This document shows positions 4,993-14,209 of a stretch of DNA of 46,172 bases, piece after piece; within the stretch, counting starts at the first letter, position 1; each line of letters opens with the position of its first letter. Origin of the DNA: Chloroflexota bacterium (GTDB lineage: Bacteria > Chloroflexota > Dormibacteria > CF-121). The notes beneath the pieces are model-generated. The model saw only the letters and a program-made list of their open reading frames with translations. It did no database searches and was not told the DNA's origin. The position numbers and the translations under genes were made by a program. The stretch covers positions 1-46,172 of the forward strand of contig VBDZ01000006.1 in assembly GCA_005881215.1 (NCBI GenBank). Reading direction: 5' to 3'.

Positions 4993-5016
4993 GTCGCTCT
5001 TTAGGCGATCACGCGA

Positions 5017-5045
5017 TTGACGATGTCCCCAAACTCTGCTATTAT
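5017..5045 (+). promoter_or_regulatory. Strong predicted promoter of the rpmG-tRNA-Trp-secE-nusG operon
   Basis: TTGACG at 5017-5022 and TATTAT at 5040-5045 with the ideal 17-bp spacer. Transcription would start near 5052, about 60 nt before rpmG. Confidence 0.65.
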
Positions 5046-5054
5046 TTGGGCTCG

Positions 5055-5078
5055 CCTAGCAGTCGCTAGGTCTTTTTT
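5055..5078 (+). terminator. Leader hairpin with U-run (possible attenuator) ahead of rpmG
   Basis: The stem CCTAGC/GCTAGG with a 4-nt AGTC loop, extendable by a G-U pair, is followed by TCTTTTTTAT. This has the form of an intrinsic terminator, but it lies downstream of the predicted promoter and upstream of rpmG. It would therefore act within the operon leader, as an attenuator, or make a very short RNA. No antiterminator partner is obvious. Confidence 0.5.
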
Positions 5079-5110
5079 ATGTTTGGAGCCCTTTTCCCCC
5101 TGGAGATTCA

Positions 5111-5269
5111 ATGCCTGCCCTAGCTTCGACCATCACCCTGCAGTGTCAGACCTGCAAGGAGCGCAACTACACGACCGTCAAGAACAAGAAGAACGATCCG
5201 GACCGGATGGAGATCAACAAGTTCTGCCCCCGGTGCCGGAAGCACACGGCCCACCGGGAGACCAAGTAG
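5111..5269 (+). CDS. rpmG: 50S ribosomal protein L33, zinc-binding type
   Basis: A 52-residue protein of the large subunit near the E site. The zinc ribbon is complete: CQTC at residues 12-15 and CPRC near residue 40, so this is the zinc-containing paralogue. The body ([23 protein letters not shown]) has the classic L33 pattern. Start: ATG, chosen because it gives the normal family length. Its place before tRNA-Trp, secE and nusG is a common bacterial arrangement. Confidence 0.95.
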
Positions 5270-5310
5270 CGTGCCCGCATCCTTCTTATACTGTTGGCGC
5301 CGACCGGCAC

Positions 5311-5383
5311 AGGGGTGTAGCTCAGCTGGTAGAGCAGCGGTCTCCAAAACCGCGGGTCGGGCGTTCGAGTCGCTCCACCCCTG
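5311..5383 (+). tRNA. tRNA-Trp (CCA)
   Basis: A complete 73-nt cloverleaf. AGGGGTG pairs with CACCCCT, the D arm is GCTC/GAGC, and the anticodon arm GCGGT/ACCGC encloses CTCCAAA, giving anticodon CCA at 5344-5346. The T-loop is TTCGAGT and the discriminator G is typical of tryptophan tRNA. It sits between rpmG and secE and is likely processed from their common transcript. Confidence 0.97.
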
Positions 5384-5404
5384 CCAGACTCAGGTATAAC
5401 TACC

Positions 5405-5668
5405 ATGGCCAGGGCCGTTCCCACCGAACCAAGGTCGAATAGAGTGCAACGCACGACTCCCTCTCCCACCCAGCGCCGCGGCCTCATCCGCAACCTCGAG
5501 GACATCGTCGGCGAGCTCCGCAAGGTGATCTGGCCCAGCTGGGCTGAGTTGCGGACGATGACGTTTGTGGTGATCGTCACGGTGGTAGTGGTATCGATCA
5601 TGCTTGGCTTGATCGACTACGTCCTGACGCAGACCCTCGTGAAAGTGGAGTTCCCCAAAATTGGCTGA
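5405..5668 (+). CDS. secE: Preprotein translocase subunit SecE
   Basis: An 87-residue single-span form of SecE, which clamps SecY in the inner-membrane protein channel. After a basic, variable N-terminus the conserved amphipathic helix ELRKVIWPSWAELRTMT (about residues 37-53) leads into one membrane helix, VVIVTVVVVSIMLGLIDYVL. The W-P-S/T-W/R-E pattern is diagnostic. Its 3' end overlaps the likely TTG start of nusG by 8 nt, implying coupled translation. Confidence 0.95.
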   Translation: MARAVPTEPRSNRVQRTTPSPTQRRGLIRNLEDIVGELRKVIWPSWAELRTMTFVVIVTVVVVSIMLGLIDYVLTQTLVKVEFPKIG

Positions 5669-6425
5669 GCCTCAGATGAACCAAACCCCGCAGAACGGCA
5701 CGCCGCAGGAAGCGGCCGCCCCGGCGAAGGCGCGTGGCCGCCGGCCCGCGCCCAAGGAGGCCGCCGAGGCCGGCCGGGTCTGGACCGGCGATCGGGTATC
5801 GGTGGGTGAGGGCCATCCGGCTCCGCCCGAGACGCCCTCGGCGCCGCCCGCCGCCCTGGTGCCGGCCGATGCCACGGCCAAGCCGGCCGCCGCGGAAGGT
5901 GAGCCGCACTGGTACGTGGTGCACGCCTATTCCGGACACGAAGAGAAGGTGCGCAACAACCTGATGAAGCGTGTCGACTCGATGGACATGCACGACCGGA
6001 TCTTCGAGGTCCTGGTGCCGACCGAAGACGTGATCGAGATCAAGGACGGGCAGCGGCGCCACGTGGCGAAGCGAACCTTCCCCGGCTACATCCTGGTCAA
6101 CATGATCATGTCGGACGAATCCTGGTACGTGGTGCGCAACACGCCCGGCGTCACCAGCTTCGTCGGCTCCGGCAACAAGCCGGTGCCGCTGCAGGAGAAA
6201 GAGATCAAGTCCATTCAGAAGCAGATCAAGGCCGAGGCGCCCAAGGTGCGCGTCGAGTACCAGGTCGGCGAGAACGTTCGCGTCATCGATGGGCCGTTCT
6301 CAGACTTCCACGGCAAGGTGGACGAGATCAACGCCGACAAGGGCAAGCTCAAGGTGCTGGTCAACATGTTCGGCCGGGAGACGCCGGTCGAGCTCGACCT
6401 CCTCCAGGTGGAGCGGTTGAAGTAA
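5661..6425 (+). CDS. nusG: Transcription termination/antitermination factor NusG
   Basis: NusG binds RNA polymerase, suppresses pausing, and links it to Rho and the ribosome. The conserved part begins at about residue 84 with the NGN domain ([19 protein letters not shown]), continues through [14 protein letters not shown] and [10 protein letters not shown], and ends with a KOW domain ([16 protein letters not shown], then [15 protein letters not shown]). Length is 254 residues against about 180-200 usually; the surplus is an Ala/Pro/Arg-rich N-terminal leader of some 80 residues. The start is either TTG 5661, overlapping secE, or ATG 5676; TTG has the better purine stretch upstream (GTGGAG). 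The stop overlaps the rplK start by 1 nt. Confidence 0.95.
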
Positions 6426-6853
6426 TGGGAAAGAAGAAAGTCAAGACGATGGTCAAGATCCAGATGGAGGCGGGCAAGGCCACGCCCGCGCCGCCGGTGG
6501 GCACCGCGCTCGGCCCACACGGCGTCAACATCATGGAGTTCGTCAAGACCTATAACGACCGCACCGCGTCGATGGCCGGCCAGGTGATCCCGGTCGAGAT
6601 CACGATCTTCGAAGACCGCAGCTTCACCTTTGTGACGAAGACGCCGCCCGCCGCCGCTCTGCTGAAGAAGGCCGCCGGCGTGGAGAAGGGTTCGGCCAAG
6701 CCGAACAAGGAGAAGGTTGGCAAGGTCAGCCGCCAGCAGGTGCGCGAGATCGCACAGCTGAAGCTGAAGGACCTGAACGCCTACGACGTCGAGGCGGCCA
6801 TGAAGATGATCGAAGGCACCGCTCGCTCGCTCGGCATCGAGGTGGCGAGTTAA
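6425..6853 (+). CDS. rplK: 50S ribosomal protein L11
   Basis: A 142-residue protein of the GTPase-associated centre that, with 23S rRNA helices 43-44, contacts elongation factors and is the thiostrepton site. The N-terminal domain shows the Pro-rich [21 protein letters not shown] stretch; the C-terminal RNA-binding domain ends [14 protein letters not shown]. Normal length. It begins on the A of the nusG TAA (TAATG) and ends on the start of rplA in the same way, so nusG, rplK and rplA should be translated as a coupled set. Confidence 0.97.
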
Positions 6854-7557
6854 TGCCACAGGCACGCGGCAAGAAGTACAAGGAAGCGGCCAAGGCGATC
6901 GAGCGCACCGAGCAGTACGCGCCCGATGAGGCGGTCCGCCTGGTGCTCAAGAGCTCGACCTCGAAGTTCGACGGCTCGATCGAGGCGCACCTGAGGCTGG
7001 GGGTCGATCCCCGCCACGCCGACCAGATGGTGCGCGGATCGGTGGTGCTGCCGCATGGCACCGGCAAGAAGCGTCGCGTCCTGGTGTTCGCCACCGGCGA
7101 CAAGGCCCGGGAGGCGACGGAGGCCGGCGCCGACTATGTCGGCGCGGACGACCTGGTCAAAAAGATCCAGGAGGGCTGGCTCGACTTCGACGTCGCGCTG
7201 GCGACGCCCGACCTGATGGGCCAGGTCGGCCGGCTGGGCAAGATCCTGGGGCCGCGTGGCCTGATGCCGAACCCCCGTGCCGGGACCGTGACCTTTGATA
7301 TCGCGCGGGCCGTCAAGGACATCCAGGGCGGGCGGATCGAGTACCGGGTCGACAAGACCGGCATCATCCACACCAATATCGGCAAGGCCTCCTACAGCGA
7401 GGCGCAGCTCAAGGACAACTTCGTCGCCCTGATGGACGCGGTCGTCCGTGCCAAGCCGAGCTCGGCGAAGGGGCAATACCTGAAGTCGGTCTATCTCTCG
7501 CCGACGATGGGGCCCAGCGTGCCCGTCGACCCGGCCGCCGCCGGCCGGCTGAGCTAA
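6853..7557 (+). CDS. rplA: 50S ribosomal protein L1
   Basis: A 234-residue L1, the mobile stalk protein at the E site; in many bacteria it also represses its own operon. Conserved stretches include [21 protein letters not shown], the domain II hinge [15 protein letters not shown], and [13 protein letters not shown] near the C-terminus. Full length, ATG start overlapping rplK by 1 nt. Fifteen nt separate it from the DUF1801 gene, instead of the usual direct step to the L10 leader. Confidence 0.97.
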
Positions 7558-7572
7558 GCGACACCGGCACGC

Positions 7573-7959
7573 ATGGCGAACGTCAAAACCGGTGATCCCG
7601 CGGTCGACACCTTCCTCAAGGGCTACGCGCCCCCGGTTCGGGAGATCGCGGTCAAGGCCCGCGAGGCGATCTTTTCCGTGTTTCCGGGCGCAACCGAAAA
7701 GGTGTATCCAGGTTGGAAGGTGATCCAGTATGGCGCCGGCGCCGACATGAAGTCGGTCTTCGCCGCGATCTCGCCACAGCGCGAGCGGGTCAACCTGGGG
7801 CTCGCCCACGGCGCGGATCTGGCCGACCCGGAAGGGTTGCTGGAGGGCGACGGCAAGGCTATTCGCCACGTCAAGCTGACCTCAGCAGAGGCGGCGGGCG
7901 CTCCAGCGGTCAAAGAGCTGATTCGCGGCGCCTTGCAAGCAACCAAGAACGGCGCCTGA
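7573..7959 (+). CDS. DUF1801 domain protein inserted between rplA and the L10 leader
   Basis: A 128-residue soluble protein with a DUF1801 (YdhG-like) fold: the opening AVDTFLKGYAPPVREIAVKARE, the middle YPGWKVIQYGAG, and SVFAAISPQRERVNLGL are typical. The biochemical role of the family is not established. It is close enough to rplA (15 nt) to be read from the same transcript, but has no clear Shine-Dalgarno sequence. Its presence inside the L11-L10 cluster is unusual, and nothing in it suggests a ribosomal function. Codon use matches the neighbours, so any insertion is not recent. Confidence 0.8.
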   Translation: MANVKTGDPAVDTFLKGYAPPVREIAVKAREAIFSVFPGATEKVYPGWKVIQYGAGADMKSVFAAISPQRERVNLGLAHGADLADPEGLLEGDGKAIRHVKLTSAEAAGAPAVKELIRGALQATKNGA

Positions 7960-7974
7960 TATACTCACGCTCCG

Positions 7975-8120
7975 CGAATAAGCGGCCCCGGCGTGGGAAG
8001 GCCGCGCGATAATTGAATAGCCGAAGACCGCTGGTGCCTAAAGACCAGGCTTAATGTCCAGCGCAGGCGAGCAAGGTACGACTGACGGCCTCCTCGCCTG
8101 GTGCGAAGGAGGTTTTTTTA
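7975..8120 (+). promoter_or_regulatory. Ribosomal protein L10 leader with terminator/antiterminator switch
   Basis: The leader has the conserved core of L10 leaders (GCCGAAGACCGC, then GCCTAAAGACCAGGC and a closing CCAGCGC), where L10 with L7/L12 binds to repress its own operon. Downstream two exclusive pairings share bases. The antiterminator is CAGGCGAG (8064-8071) with CTCGCCTG (8093-8100). The terminator is CCTCCTCGC (8089-8097) with GCGAAGGAGG (8103-8112), followed by seven Ts. The 3' arm of the terminator contains AAGGAGG, the Shine-Dalgarno sequence of rplJ. A TATACT at 7960-7965 may be a -10 box for the leader. Confidence 0.85.
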
Positions 8121-8702
8121 TTGGCGACCGCGACCAAAAAGCAAGAGAAAGTCGATAAGAAGGCAGAGAAGGCCGCCACCGTGGCGGCGATCACCACCCG
8201 GCTCAAGGCCTCGTCGACCGCCGTGCTCGCCGACTACCGCGGGATGACCGTCGGCCAGATGCGCGAGCTGCGCAGCAAGCTGCGCGACGGCAACATCGAG
8301 ATGATGGTGGTGAAAAACACGCTGGCCCGGCGCGCCGCGAAAGCGGCCGGCTACGAGCCGTTAAGCGCCGAGCTGGTCGGGCCGATCGCGATGCTGTTCG
8401 CCGCCGACGACGTCTCCGCCCCCGCCCGCATCCTCAACGACTATATCCGGGCGAACCGGAAGATGGTGATCAAGGGCGGATTGCTCGAAGGCCAGGTGAT
8501 CAAGGCCGATGCCGTCACCGAGCTGGCCGACCTGCCCTCCCGCGAGGTGCTGCTCAGCCGCCTGCTGGGGGCCATGCAGGCTCCCCTGGGTAGCCTCGCC
8601 AGCGTCTTACAGGCCCCCATGTCCAAGCTCGCTCGCACGCTCGACGCCCTTCGCAGTCAGAAGGAATCACAGTCACCGGCCCCGGCAGCGGCCGCAAGTT
8701 AG
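8121..8702 (+). CDS. rplJ: 50S ribosomal protein L10
   Basis: A 193-residue protein that anchors L7/L12 dimers to the ribosome stalk and autoregulates through the leader just upstream. The N-terminal RNA-binding domain includes VLADYRGMTVGQMRELRSKL and VVKNTLARRAAKAA; the C-terminal helix that binds L7/L12 dimers is followed by a short Pro/Ala tail. The start is TTG, 8 nt after AAGGAGG; no upstream in-frame start fits. The weak start codon and an RBS inside the terminator stem mean that expression is tightly gated. Confidence 0.95.
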   Translation: MATATKKQEKVDKKAEKAATVAAITTRLKASSTAVLADYRGMTVGQMRELRSKLRDGNIEMMVVKNTLARRAAKAAGYEPLSAELVGPIAMLFAADDVSAPARILNDYIRANRKMVIKGGLLEGQVIKADAVTELADLPSREVLLSRLLGAMQAPLGSLASVLQAPMSKLARTLDALRSQKESQSPAPAAAAS

Positions 8703-8711
8703 GAGGAACCA

Positions 8712-9104
8712 ATGGCAAAAGTCAGTGTCGACGATTTCGTATCGGCGTTGAAGGAGTGGACCGTGGTGGACGTCATGAACGCCATCAAGGCCATCGAGAA
8801 CGAGTTCGGTGTCACGGCCGCGGCCCCGGTGGCGGCGGCAGCGGCGCCGGCCGCCGGTGGTGGAGCCGCCGCGGCTGCGCCGGAAGCGGAGCAGACCGAG
8901 TTCCAGGTGGTCCTCACCTCCCCGGGCGACGCCAAGATCGGCGTGATCAAGGTGGTCCGCGAGATCACCGGGCTGGGCCTGAAGGAAGCCAAGGACCTGG
9001 TCGACCAGGCGCCCAAGCCGGTCAAGCAGGGCGTCAACCGCGAAGAGGCCGAAGGCGTCCTGAAGAAGTTGAAGGACGCGGGCGCCGGCGCCGAGATCAA
9101 ATAG
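8712..9104 (+). CDS. rplL: 50S ribosomal protein L7/L12
   Basis: A 130-residue stalk protein present in several dimers per ribosome; it recruits and activates the translational GTPases. The N-terminal dimerisation domain (about 1-33) is joined by an Ala/Gly-rich hinge of about 30 residues to the C-terminal factor-binding domain, with [20 protein letters not shown] and [20 protein letters not shown] strong AGGAGG precedes the ATG by 5 nt, in line with the excess of L7/L12 over L10. A palindromic repeat follows. Confidence 0.97.
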
Positions 9105-9143
9105 GCATTTGTTTGATCCCTGCCCGCCCGCTGGGCGGATGAT

Positions 9144-9180
9144 CCCCTCCCCCCTTGCGGGGGAGGGTTCGGGTGGGGGG
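9144..9180 (+). repeat. Palindromic G-rich repeat, copy C, abutting the corA start
   Basis: CCCCTCCCCCC, loop TTGC, GGGGGAGGG, then flank TTCGGGTGGGGGG. It has four closely spaced G-tracts on the plus strand, as in copy A. It ends 3 bases before the codon where corA homology begins, so it occupies the place of the expected start codon and RBS. It also lies 40 nt after rplL and could slow polymerase or protect the rplL message. Confidence 0.8.
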
Positions 9181-9314
9181 TTGTTATCCGGTACCTGATC
9201 GCGACCCAGGGTCCCCTTAACGAGCCCGTTACCGACCAGATCGCCGAGTGCCTGCAGGCGGGCAAGCAGGGATTCTGGCTCGACATCGAGAATCCGGACG
9301 ATGCCGACTTTGCG

Positions 9315-10148
9315 TTGCTCGAGAAGACCTTCAAGTTTCACCAGCTGACCCTCGAGGACATCCGCCACCAGAACCAGCGGCCGAAGGTCGAGGAGTATCC
9401 CGGCTACGCCTTCGTCGTCCTCTTTACCGCCGAGCTGGAGGGATCGCGGGTGCAGATCCGCGAACACCATATCTACCTCTCCGGGCAATATCTGGTCAGC
9501 GTCCACCTCGAGCCGTCCGACATACTCGACCGCCTGCGTGACCGGATCAAGGCCAACCCGGATCTGGCTCATCGGAGCCTGCCGTACCTCTTCTACCTGG
9601 TGGTCGACCAGCTGGTCGACTCGCTCTTCCCGGTGCTCGAGAAGCTCGACGACGCGACGGACGCGGTTGAAGACTCGATCATCCAGCGGCCCGACAGCGC
9701 AGCGCTGAGCCAGTTGTCGGACCTGAAGCGCGCGGTGGTCGACCTACGGAAGGTGCTCGGGGCGCAGCGGGATGTCTTTCAGCGGCTGACCACGCGCGCC
9801 ATCGGCGAAGTGGGCGACCAGGAAATGTCGATCTACTACCGCGACGTCTACGACCACCTGGTCCGGCAATACGAGACGGTCGACTCGCTGCGCGACCTGC
9901 TGAGCACCTCGATGGACGTCTACCTCTCGACCGTCTCGAACCGGCTGAACCTGCGGATCACCCGGCTCACGGTCTTCGCCACCCTCTTTCTGCCGCTGAC
10001 CTTTCTCACCGGCTTCTTTGGCATGAACTTCGCCTGGCTGGTGAGCCGCATCATGCCGGCCTGGACCTTCTGGGTGCTGGCGGTCGGGGTGATGGCCGTG
10101 ACCACGCTCGGCCAGCTCCTCTACTACCGCCGCCACGGCTGGATCTAG
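9315..10148 (+). CDS. corA: CorA-type magnesium/cobalt transport protein
   Basis: A pentameric inner-membrane divalent-cation channel. The C-terminal two membrane helices carry the signature GMN in FFGMNFAWL, and the protein ends with basic residues (YYRRHGWI). The cytosolic part is recognisable from LTLEDIRHQNQRPKVEEY through LRKVLGAQRDVF. The coordinates use the first canonical start, TTG 9315 (277 residues). However, the same frame codes for further CorA-like sequence back to 9183 (RYLIATQGPLNEPV, GFWLDIENPDD) with no ATG, GTG or TTG, only a GTT ATC where homologues start. The true start is probably a rare codon near 9183-9195, or the gene is damaged. Its place between rplL and rpoB is unusual. 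Confidence 0.85.
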   Translation: MLEKTFKFHQLTLEDIRHQNQRPKVEEYPGYAFVVLFTAELEGSRVQIREHHIYLSGQYLVSVHLEPSDILDRLRDRIKANPDLAHRSLPYLFYLVVDQLVDSLFPVLEKLDDATDAVEDSIIQRPDSAALSQLSDLKRAVVDLRKVLGAQRDVFQRLTTRAIGEVGDQEMSIYYRDVYDHLVRQYETVDSLRDLLSTSMDVYLSTVSNRLNLRITRLTVFATLFLPLTFLTGFFGMNFAWLVSRIMPAWTFWVLAVGVMAVTTLGQLLYYRRHGWI

Positions 10149-10239
10149 CCGCAAACTCCCTCCTCCGCTGGGGCCTACCTTACGGCTACCTAGGTTTGGC
10201 GGGCTCCCGCCGTTGTCCTTCCTGGACGGAGGGACCAAA

Positions 10240-10374
10240 ATGTTCCGCTGGATGCTCTTCTTCATTCTGATCCTGGCCGGGATCCTGGGCTTTGTCTCCT
10301 ACGTCATGGGGATCCCGATTCCGGGCCTGACCCAGCTCGGCATCCAGCAGCCGTCAACCCCGTTCCAGCCGTAG
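10240..10374 (+). CDS. Small single-span membrane protein (44 residues), unknown function
   Basis: A short gene with a good Shine-Dalgarno sequence (GGAGGGA, spacing about 6) and an ATG start. The peptide begins MFRWMLFFILILAGILGF, a clear membrane helix (about residues 4-24), followed by a short Pro-rich hydrophilic tail ending in PFQP. Codon use agrees with neighbouring genes. I do not recognise the family. It lies between corA and the rpoB promoter, in the same direction, and could be co-transcribed with corA. Confidence 0.6.
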   Translation: MFRWMLFFILILAGILGFVSYVMGIPIPGLTQLGIQQPSTPFQP

Positions 10375-10535
10375 GTCCAAACCCCTTCCCCTGCGCGAGC
10401 TGGGGTGCTAAACTAGCGCGCGATTAGTCTGATAGCGTTCCGATCGGCGACCTGACCGACTTTCTAACCCCGGGGAACCCGCCCTGGGCCCGCTCGCGAA
10501 GCTGTACCGGTTTCGCGGCAAAGATGTTTGCGCGC

Positions 10536-10565
10536 TTGACACCCTGGGTACCCTAATGGTACTAT
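10536..10565 (+). promoter_or_regulatory. Predicted rpoBC promoter
   Basis: TTGACA (10536-10541) and TACTAT (10560-10565) are separated by 18 bp, leaving a leader of about 85 nt before rpoB. A weaker candidate, TTCCCC with TAAACT near 10386-10415, lies further upstream. The rest of the 10375-10657 gap shows no gene. Confidence 0.6.
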
Positions 10566-10657
10566 TGCCGTTCGGTGCTTCCAGGGTTGCTTTTCCGCGT
10601 CCCTAGCACAATCTGCCTGCCCACCATTTTTTCCTGCTTCATCTGAAAGGAGAGTCC

Positions 10658-14209
<3,552 letters not shown>

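Follow-up and report, generated by a model that had tools for sequence, protein, structure and literature searches.

In the leader of rplJ in an uncultured soil bacterium (a Candidatus Dormibacterota MAG with an assembly of 2.79 Mb), the 3' arm of an intrinsic-terminator-like hairpin is at the same time the Shine-Dalgarno sequence of rplJ. By eye, this fused arrangement is present in 49 of the 51 leaders of two families of the class Dormibacteria. Given the observed elements, overlaps and conservation, the leader is probably an autogenous rplJL attenuator, with L10(L12)4 as its presumed ligand and with termination and a block of translation as its presumed outputs. More tentatively, at what we judge slightly short of an even chance, it is a two-level switch in a housekeeping operon, naturally evolved and conserved in its lineage, in which one hairpin halts transcription and latches the ribosome binding site (RBS) in escaped transcripts; in Dormibacteria, the terminator arm would have become the gene's own RBS and the T-run would have moved against a mostly-TTG start. 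The window, which is the whole stretch of DNA analysed, is 46,172 nucleotides long.

Locus and putative promoter

The gene order across the window is secE-nusG-rplK-rplA, a DUF1801 gene, rplJ, rplL, a CorA gene and rpoB, where secE, nusG and rpoB are presumed identities, assigned from the translations. The leader lies directly 5' of rplJ-rplL, the position that it has in the B. subtilis-type attenuator, and the start is TTG in all 12 readable rplJ leaders of the same genus. The features of the locus are as follows.

7573-7959, DUF1801 gene, between rplA and the rplJ leader
7957-7965, plus strand, putative extended -10-like promoter box TGATATACT, read from the sequence
8121-8702, plus strand, rplJ (L10) with a TTG start, Pfam PF00466 (E 4e-28)
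8712-9104, plus strand, rplL (L7/L12), 3' of rplJ, Pfam PF00542 and PF16320

The gene between rplL and rpoB encodes a CorA-type magnesium transporter (9315-10148). TGA at 7957-7959 ends the DUF1801 reading frame and, through its TG, also belongs to the extended -10 box of a putative rplJL promoter. Among relatives sorted into leader families (see below), a -10-like hexamer is found upstream of the leader in 15/15 leaders of family f1 and in 33 of the 35 examined in f3, and in 26 of these 35 it ends 7 nt 5' of the leader's first aligned base. Between box and leader, about 32 extra bases (7976-8013) are seen only in this genome and in one other, G014, that is in 2 of the 15 f1 leaders, and they could form a hairpin (GCGGCC 7982-7987 with GGCCGC 8000-8005).

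Anatomy of the leader

Three structures that share bases can be drawn in the leader, a sensor, an antiterminator and a terminator. Their parts, all on the plus strand, are listed here.

8020-8068, plus strand, L10-binding-type stem (anti-antiterminator, sensor), from the Rfam RF00557 match and covariation
8020-8022/8066-8068, 8029-8034/8058-8063 and 8036-8039/8047-8050, plus strand, outer helix, stem and upper stem of the sensor
8052-8054, plus strand, unpaired UAA of the sensor
8064-8071, plus strand, antiterminator 5' strand CAGGCGAG, forming 8 bp with CTCGCCTG at 8093-8100, a conserved pairing
8074-8077, plus strand, antiterminator inner 5' strand, from the predicted fold, partner 8088-8091
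8088-8100, plus strand, 3' side of the antiterminator (8088-8091 plus 8093-8100), which shares bases with the terminator 5' arm
8087-8114, plus strand, intrinsic-terminator-like hairpin (8087-8094/8107-8114 and 8095-8097/8103-8105), from fold and conservation
8106-8112, plus strand, rplJ Shine-Dalgarno AAGGAGG inside the terminator 3' arm, at the same position in relatives
8113-8119, plus strand, T-run of seven T, terminator tail and spacer to the start, from sequence and relatives, followed by A8120 and TTG 8121-8123

In the terminator core, CCTCCTCGC at 8089-8097 pairs with 8103-8112, A8106 being bulged, and two G-U pairs reach into the T-run. GGC 8066-8068 is common to the 3' strand of the sensor outer helix and the antiterminator 5' strand, and bases 8088-8097 are common to antiterminator and terminator; in an alignment of 48 leaders these overlaps fall at columns 59-61 and 111-122 respectively. 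The inner antiterminator helix takes CCU 8089-8091, otherwise the partner of the Shine-Dalgarno sequence, so that with the antiterminator formed most of the Shine-Dalgarno complement is tied up elsewhere. A leader peptide is absent here, and the embedded Shine-Dalgarno sequence belongs to rplJ itself.

A preliminary description of this DNA had placed CTCGC 8093-8097 in two alternative pairings, with the antiterminator strand 8064-8071 or within the terminator, and these coordinates are exact. Its identification of the terminator 3' arm with the rplJ Shine-Dalgarno sequence, and of the T-run with the spacer before TTG, can be read directly in the sequence, and terminator, RBS and start do fit in 35 nt (8089-8123). 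The two pairings of its switch model stand, but the model was incomplete, as it did not include the conserved -10-like box or the L10-binding-type stem, a competitor of the antiterminator.

Single-sequence tests and database matches

Compared with chance, the folding of the single sequence is unremarkable, with z scores of -1.46 (8010-8125), -1.06 (8080-8130) and, in a further test, 0.36. These scores are not decisive, hence the case for a switch rests on the comparison among relatives. The string GGAGGNTTTTT occurs in 4 copies in the 2.79 Mb assembly and its backward control in none; by reading, only the copy in the rplJ leader stands before a gene start in such a layout. The fused arrangement is in excess of chance.

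A consensus terminator scan of positions 5000-12000 did not have the rplJ leader site among its calls, and Rfam at the gathering threshold returned only two tRNAs for the whole window. The L10_leader model RF00557 was matched over its full length at 8003-8127 with 41.8 bits (E 1.1e-5 in 301 nt searched), under the gathering cut-off of 44 bits; among 18 genomes of the order none reached the cut-off and 9 had an E value of 0.001 or better. The leader is like the family in its sensor stem, its UAA, its terminator and its location before rplJ, and unlike it in the score; because the cut-off is missed, formal RF00557 membership is not claimed from these sequence matches. Two minus-strand Rfam matches, SCARNA20 (E 0.26) and mir-36_2 (E 8.7), were rejected as chance.

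The fused arrangement among relatives

The class was sampled with 110 genomes, 97 of which had an L10 match and 94 a readable leader, those of G006, G074 and G095 being cut at contig ends. The 94 leaders fall into four families, f1 (15), f3 (36), f2 (29) and f4 (14). In f1 and f3 a terminator with a T-run stands 5' of rplJ; the T-run is present in 51/51 of these leaders, which come from G+C-rich genomes, and it abuts the stem in all. By eye, the 3' arm of this terminator doubles as the Shine-Dalgarno sequence in 13/15 f1 and 36/36 f3 leaders; by rule, the figures are 11/15 and 34/36 (45/51 in total), against 0/29 in f2 and 0/14 in f4, or none of these 43 leaders, by the same rule. The leader rows are related and such family counts do not represent independent events; by genus, the rule finds the arrangement in 2/4 genera of f1 and 13/13 of f3.

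Two f1 leaders (G015 and G016) fail the rule with a terminator genuinely apart from the Shine-Dalgarno sequence. Four others were counted as fused by eye and not by rule: G002, G007 and G021 have the arm and the T-run, but a competing fold is preferred over the 46 nt tested; G033 has a longer spacer. G033, G109 and G094, all of f3 and counted as fused, have a weaker AAGG-type arm, 12 to 14 nt from ATG. TTG is the start codon in 40/51 f1/f3 versus 0/43 f2/f4 leaders, with starts picked by Shine-Dalgarno score and some f2 picks unsure; in G019 the T-run itself ends in the TTG start. Two single leaders are irregular. In L182 (G096) the 5' half is unrelated sequence and the fused terminator is intact, so that either two contigs were joined or the sensor was really lost. 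In L004 (G001) the TTG and the remainder of L10 are in different frames, with an apparent loss of 2 bases in the first codons relative to relatives, either an assembly error or a real frameshift.

The f2 and f4 leaders (L030 and L040, for example) keep the sensor core and have no T-run terminator; at least four T no further than 95 nt from the start are found in 1/29 f2 and 0/14 f4 leaders. In some of them, such as f2 g23, the Shine-Dalgarno sequence is folded in a hairpin, and this points to control at translation. In the f2 leaders L161 (G044) and L185 (G038), the start comes a few to about 20 bases after the sensor stem and the sensor 3' strand runs into the Shine-Dalgarno sequence, so L10 could block the ribosome directly.

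Conservation and covariation of the pairings

The alignment holds 48 of the 94 leaders (13 f1 and 35 f3) and omits the 43 of f2 and f4, G015 and G016, whose terminator is apart, and G096, whose 5' part is missing. The two pairings of the preliminary description are conserved in these relatives, with 96.3% of cells paired in the antiterminator outer helix and 89.4% in the terminator, so the lack of conservation that would have counted against that description is not seen. Covariation is uneven: it is good for the terminator and strong for the sensor, and weak for the antiterminator.

Indeed, the sensor has 93.5% of cells paired and a covariation score of 0.332, compared with at most 0.052 for slid partners. 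In its UAA loop AAT is invariant in 48/48 leaders and the preceding base is T or C. The terminator scores 0.257 against at most 0.126 when slid, and its columns 118-145 read C-G in 24 leaders, U-A in 15, G-C in 6 and unpaired in 3. Over its whole length the antiterminator is 85.4% paired (at most 50.1% when slid); its inner helix has 75.6% of cells paired over the 48 leaders, the f3 counterpart being longer and at another register. The antiterminator covariation score is 0.149, whereas a slide of -3 scores 0.201, and a single good double change is found, at columns 62-119 (A-U 21, G-C 14, G-U 11, unpaired 2). In f1 alone (15 rows including G015 and G016), the antiterminator is 98.1% paired and 18/500 shuffles reach the observed score. 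The antiterminator is thus kept as a pairing in the aligned sequences, and its covariation is only suggestive. In the kink-turn region, an AGAC-like stretch and AGG are conserved on the 5' strand; the kink-turn geometry is uncertain, since on the 3' strand the f1 leaders carry CA in place of the GA of f3 and Firmicutes.

Leaders outside the class and origin of the fusion

A covariance model built from the 48 leaders had matches in 135 of 400 phylum genomes drawn, 41 of them in the class, and 60 of the 94 matching leaders outside it were read. A terminator arm serving as rplJ Shine-Dalgarno was found in 0/60 of these leaders read elsewhere in the phylum. In nearly all of them a terminator precedes a distinct Shine-Dalgarno sequence, and a few, G209 for instance, are without a clear T-run terminator. 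Among 49 further loci of other lineages, 33 were inspected; where a leader is present, it has a terminator and then a separate Shine-Dalgarno sequence, and several loci are leaderless.

The first automatic rule for the fused arrangement, which demanded 25 open codons, was applied outside the class. Its 3 matches among the 60 leaders are not real, as the start had been taken inside or before the true Shine-Dalgarno sequence, and its 5 matches among the 49 loci are Desulfosporosinus leaders with a proper Shine-Dalgarno sequence and start further on. In these (L066, L071, L074, L092 and L100) a terminator arm with GGAGG and a T-run leads to a TTG that shares the rplJ frame, resembling the leader peptide of B. 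anthracis, which is reported to be in frame with rplJ as an extension of it (excerpt of PMC4538822).

Since leaders of other lineages have a terminator and a separate Shine-Dalgarno sequence, the terminator is most likely older than its double use; G015 and G016 keep the two apart. One class thus displays a series, with the terminator apart (G015 and G016), fused (f1 g1 and g4, all f3) and absent (f2 and f4). A phylogeny of 42 L10 proteins (36 from the class and 6 outgroup) requires no fewer than 3 transitions between the fused and the unfused state; f3 comes out as one clade with low support (67/73), and one origin with losses and separate gains both fit.

Proposed mechanism and alternatives

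When little L10(L12)4 is free, the nascent leader would form the antiterminator (8064-8071/8093-8100 plus 8074-8077/8088-8091) and RNA polymerase would read through; in this state the Shine-Dalgarno sequence 8106-8112 would be without its complement and open. Excess L10(L12)4 would bind the 8020-8068 element, whose outer helix would capture GGC 8066-8068 from the antiterminator. With the antiterminator lost, the terminator could form and transcription would end in the T-run just 5' of the start codon. A transcript that had passed the terminator, with the hairpin kept or re-formed, would be closed to ribosomes too, since the 3' arm of that hairpin carries the rplJ Shine-Dalgarno sequence. We infer this second, translational level of control from the anatomy of the leader and from the staphylococcal plasmid pT181. 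If the two-level reading is true, L10(L12)4 remains able to repress rplJL once the polymerase has passed.

Fold energies bear on the second level. When the sensor plus terminator, or the antiterminator, were forced in the 48 leaders, in a model that ignores kink-turn and protein, the energy of the terminator state minus that of the antiterminator state had medians of +1.1 (f1) and -1.7 kcal/mol (f3), over a range of -19.5 to +7.2. The same difference for the window leader is +1.3 or +3.0 kcal/mol by two ways of forcing. In minimum-energy folds of the growing chain, the antiterminator is present by 8099 and the fold is unchanged to 8108, and the free minimum-energy fold of the window leader keeps the antiterminator and breaks part of the sensor. 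The near-equal energies modelled in most leaders would be what a switch set by a protein needs.

It is quite possible, even if we lean against it, that only transcription is attenuated and that the shared Shine-Dalgarno sequence is an economy of sequence, read-through RNA keeping the antiterminator fold. The window leader, in which the antiterminator is favoured once made, and the f1 median of 1.1 kcal/mol are in its favour, as is B. subtilis, where repression was found at the transcriptional level (excerpt of PMC4538822). However, f3 favours sensor plus terminator by a median of 1.7 kcal/mol, so that read-through RNA could re-close, and the same geometry adds translational repression in pT181 (excerpt of PMC5435934).

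A switch acting on translation alone, whose hairpin hides the Shine-Dalgarno sequence and whose T-run serves as a U-rich spacer or as an S1 site and not as a terminator tail, seems improbable. It would agree with E. coli, where L10 control is described as translational and without a terminator (excerpt of PMC10931766), and with the f2/f4 relatives that lack a T-run, but the T-run abuts the stem throughout f1 and f3, and elsewhere in the phylum and in Firmicutes a terminator occupies the same place beside a separate Shine-Dalgarno sequence, that is, independently of the RBS. A ligand other than L10(L12)4, such as another ribosomal protein of the cluster, could be imagined with rplK and rplA just upstream, but it is very improbable given the match to the L10 leader family, the -10-like box between rplA and the leader, and the invariant AAT of a UAA loop reported as critical for L10(L12)4 binding (excerpt of PMC4538822).

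Comparison with known systems

The leader that we read as an autogenous L10(L12)4 attenuator has its nearest counterpart in B. subtilis rplJL, an attenuator driven by L10(L12)4 whose sensor, antiterminator and terminator were each demonstrated by mutation and in vitro transcription (PMC4538822, in excerpt). Both have the same succession of three structures that exclude one another, a UAA in the sensor, a Shine-Dalgarno sequence in the terminator 3' arm and a U-tract. The preliminary description had noted that L10 attenuators are known; the precedent is closer than it stated, as the Bacillus terminator 3' arm holds the Shine-Dalgarno sequence of a leader peptide (PMC4538822, in excerpt). In B. 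subtilis the embedded sequence serves that peptide and rplJ has its own downstream, whereas here it serves rplJ directly (same excerpt). In E. coli, L10(L12)4 recognises a kink-turn in the leader of its own operon, rplJL, and the same ligand is proposed here; that system differs in its translational repression, in a binding site far from the RBS and in the absence of a terminator from the mechanism reported in the excerpt (PMC10931766).

The geometry itself is like that of the repC attenuator of S. aureus plasmid pT181, where an intrinsic terminator contains the RBS in its 3' half (excerpt of PMC5435934). There a single hairpin acts on transcription and translation, a principle shown in 2017, and having the RBS inside the terminator raised repression from 85% to 98%; pT181 differs in its antisense RNA ligand, its plasmid replication gene and its sequence (same excerpt). 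In 2010, concerted control of transcription and translation of such a type had been named as not yet demonstrated (excerpt of PMC2965389). An L10 leader with the rplJ Shine-Dalgarno sequence inside the terminator was not found in the open-access literature searched. Hence both ingredients, the autogenous L10 attenuator and the RBS-hiding terminator, are already known, and their fusion at rplJ, conserved in two Dormibacteria families, looks new. The design recurs in the genomes of many wild relatives, within an essential operon whose reference mechanism is known, and the two levels should therefore be separable by ordinary reporter tests.
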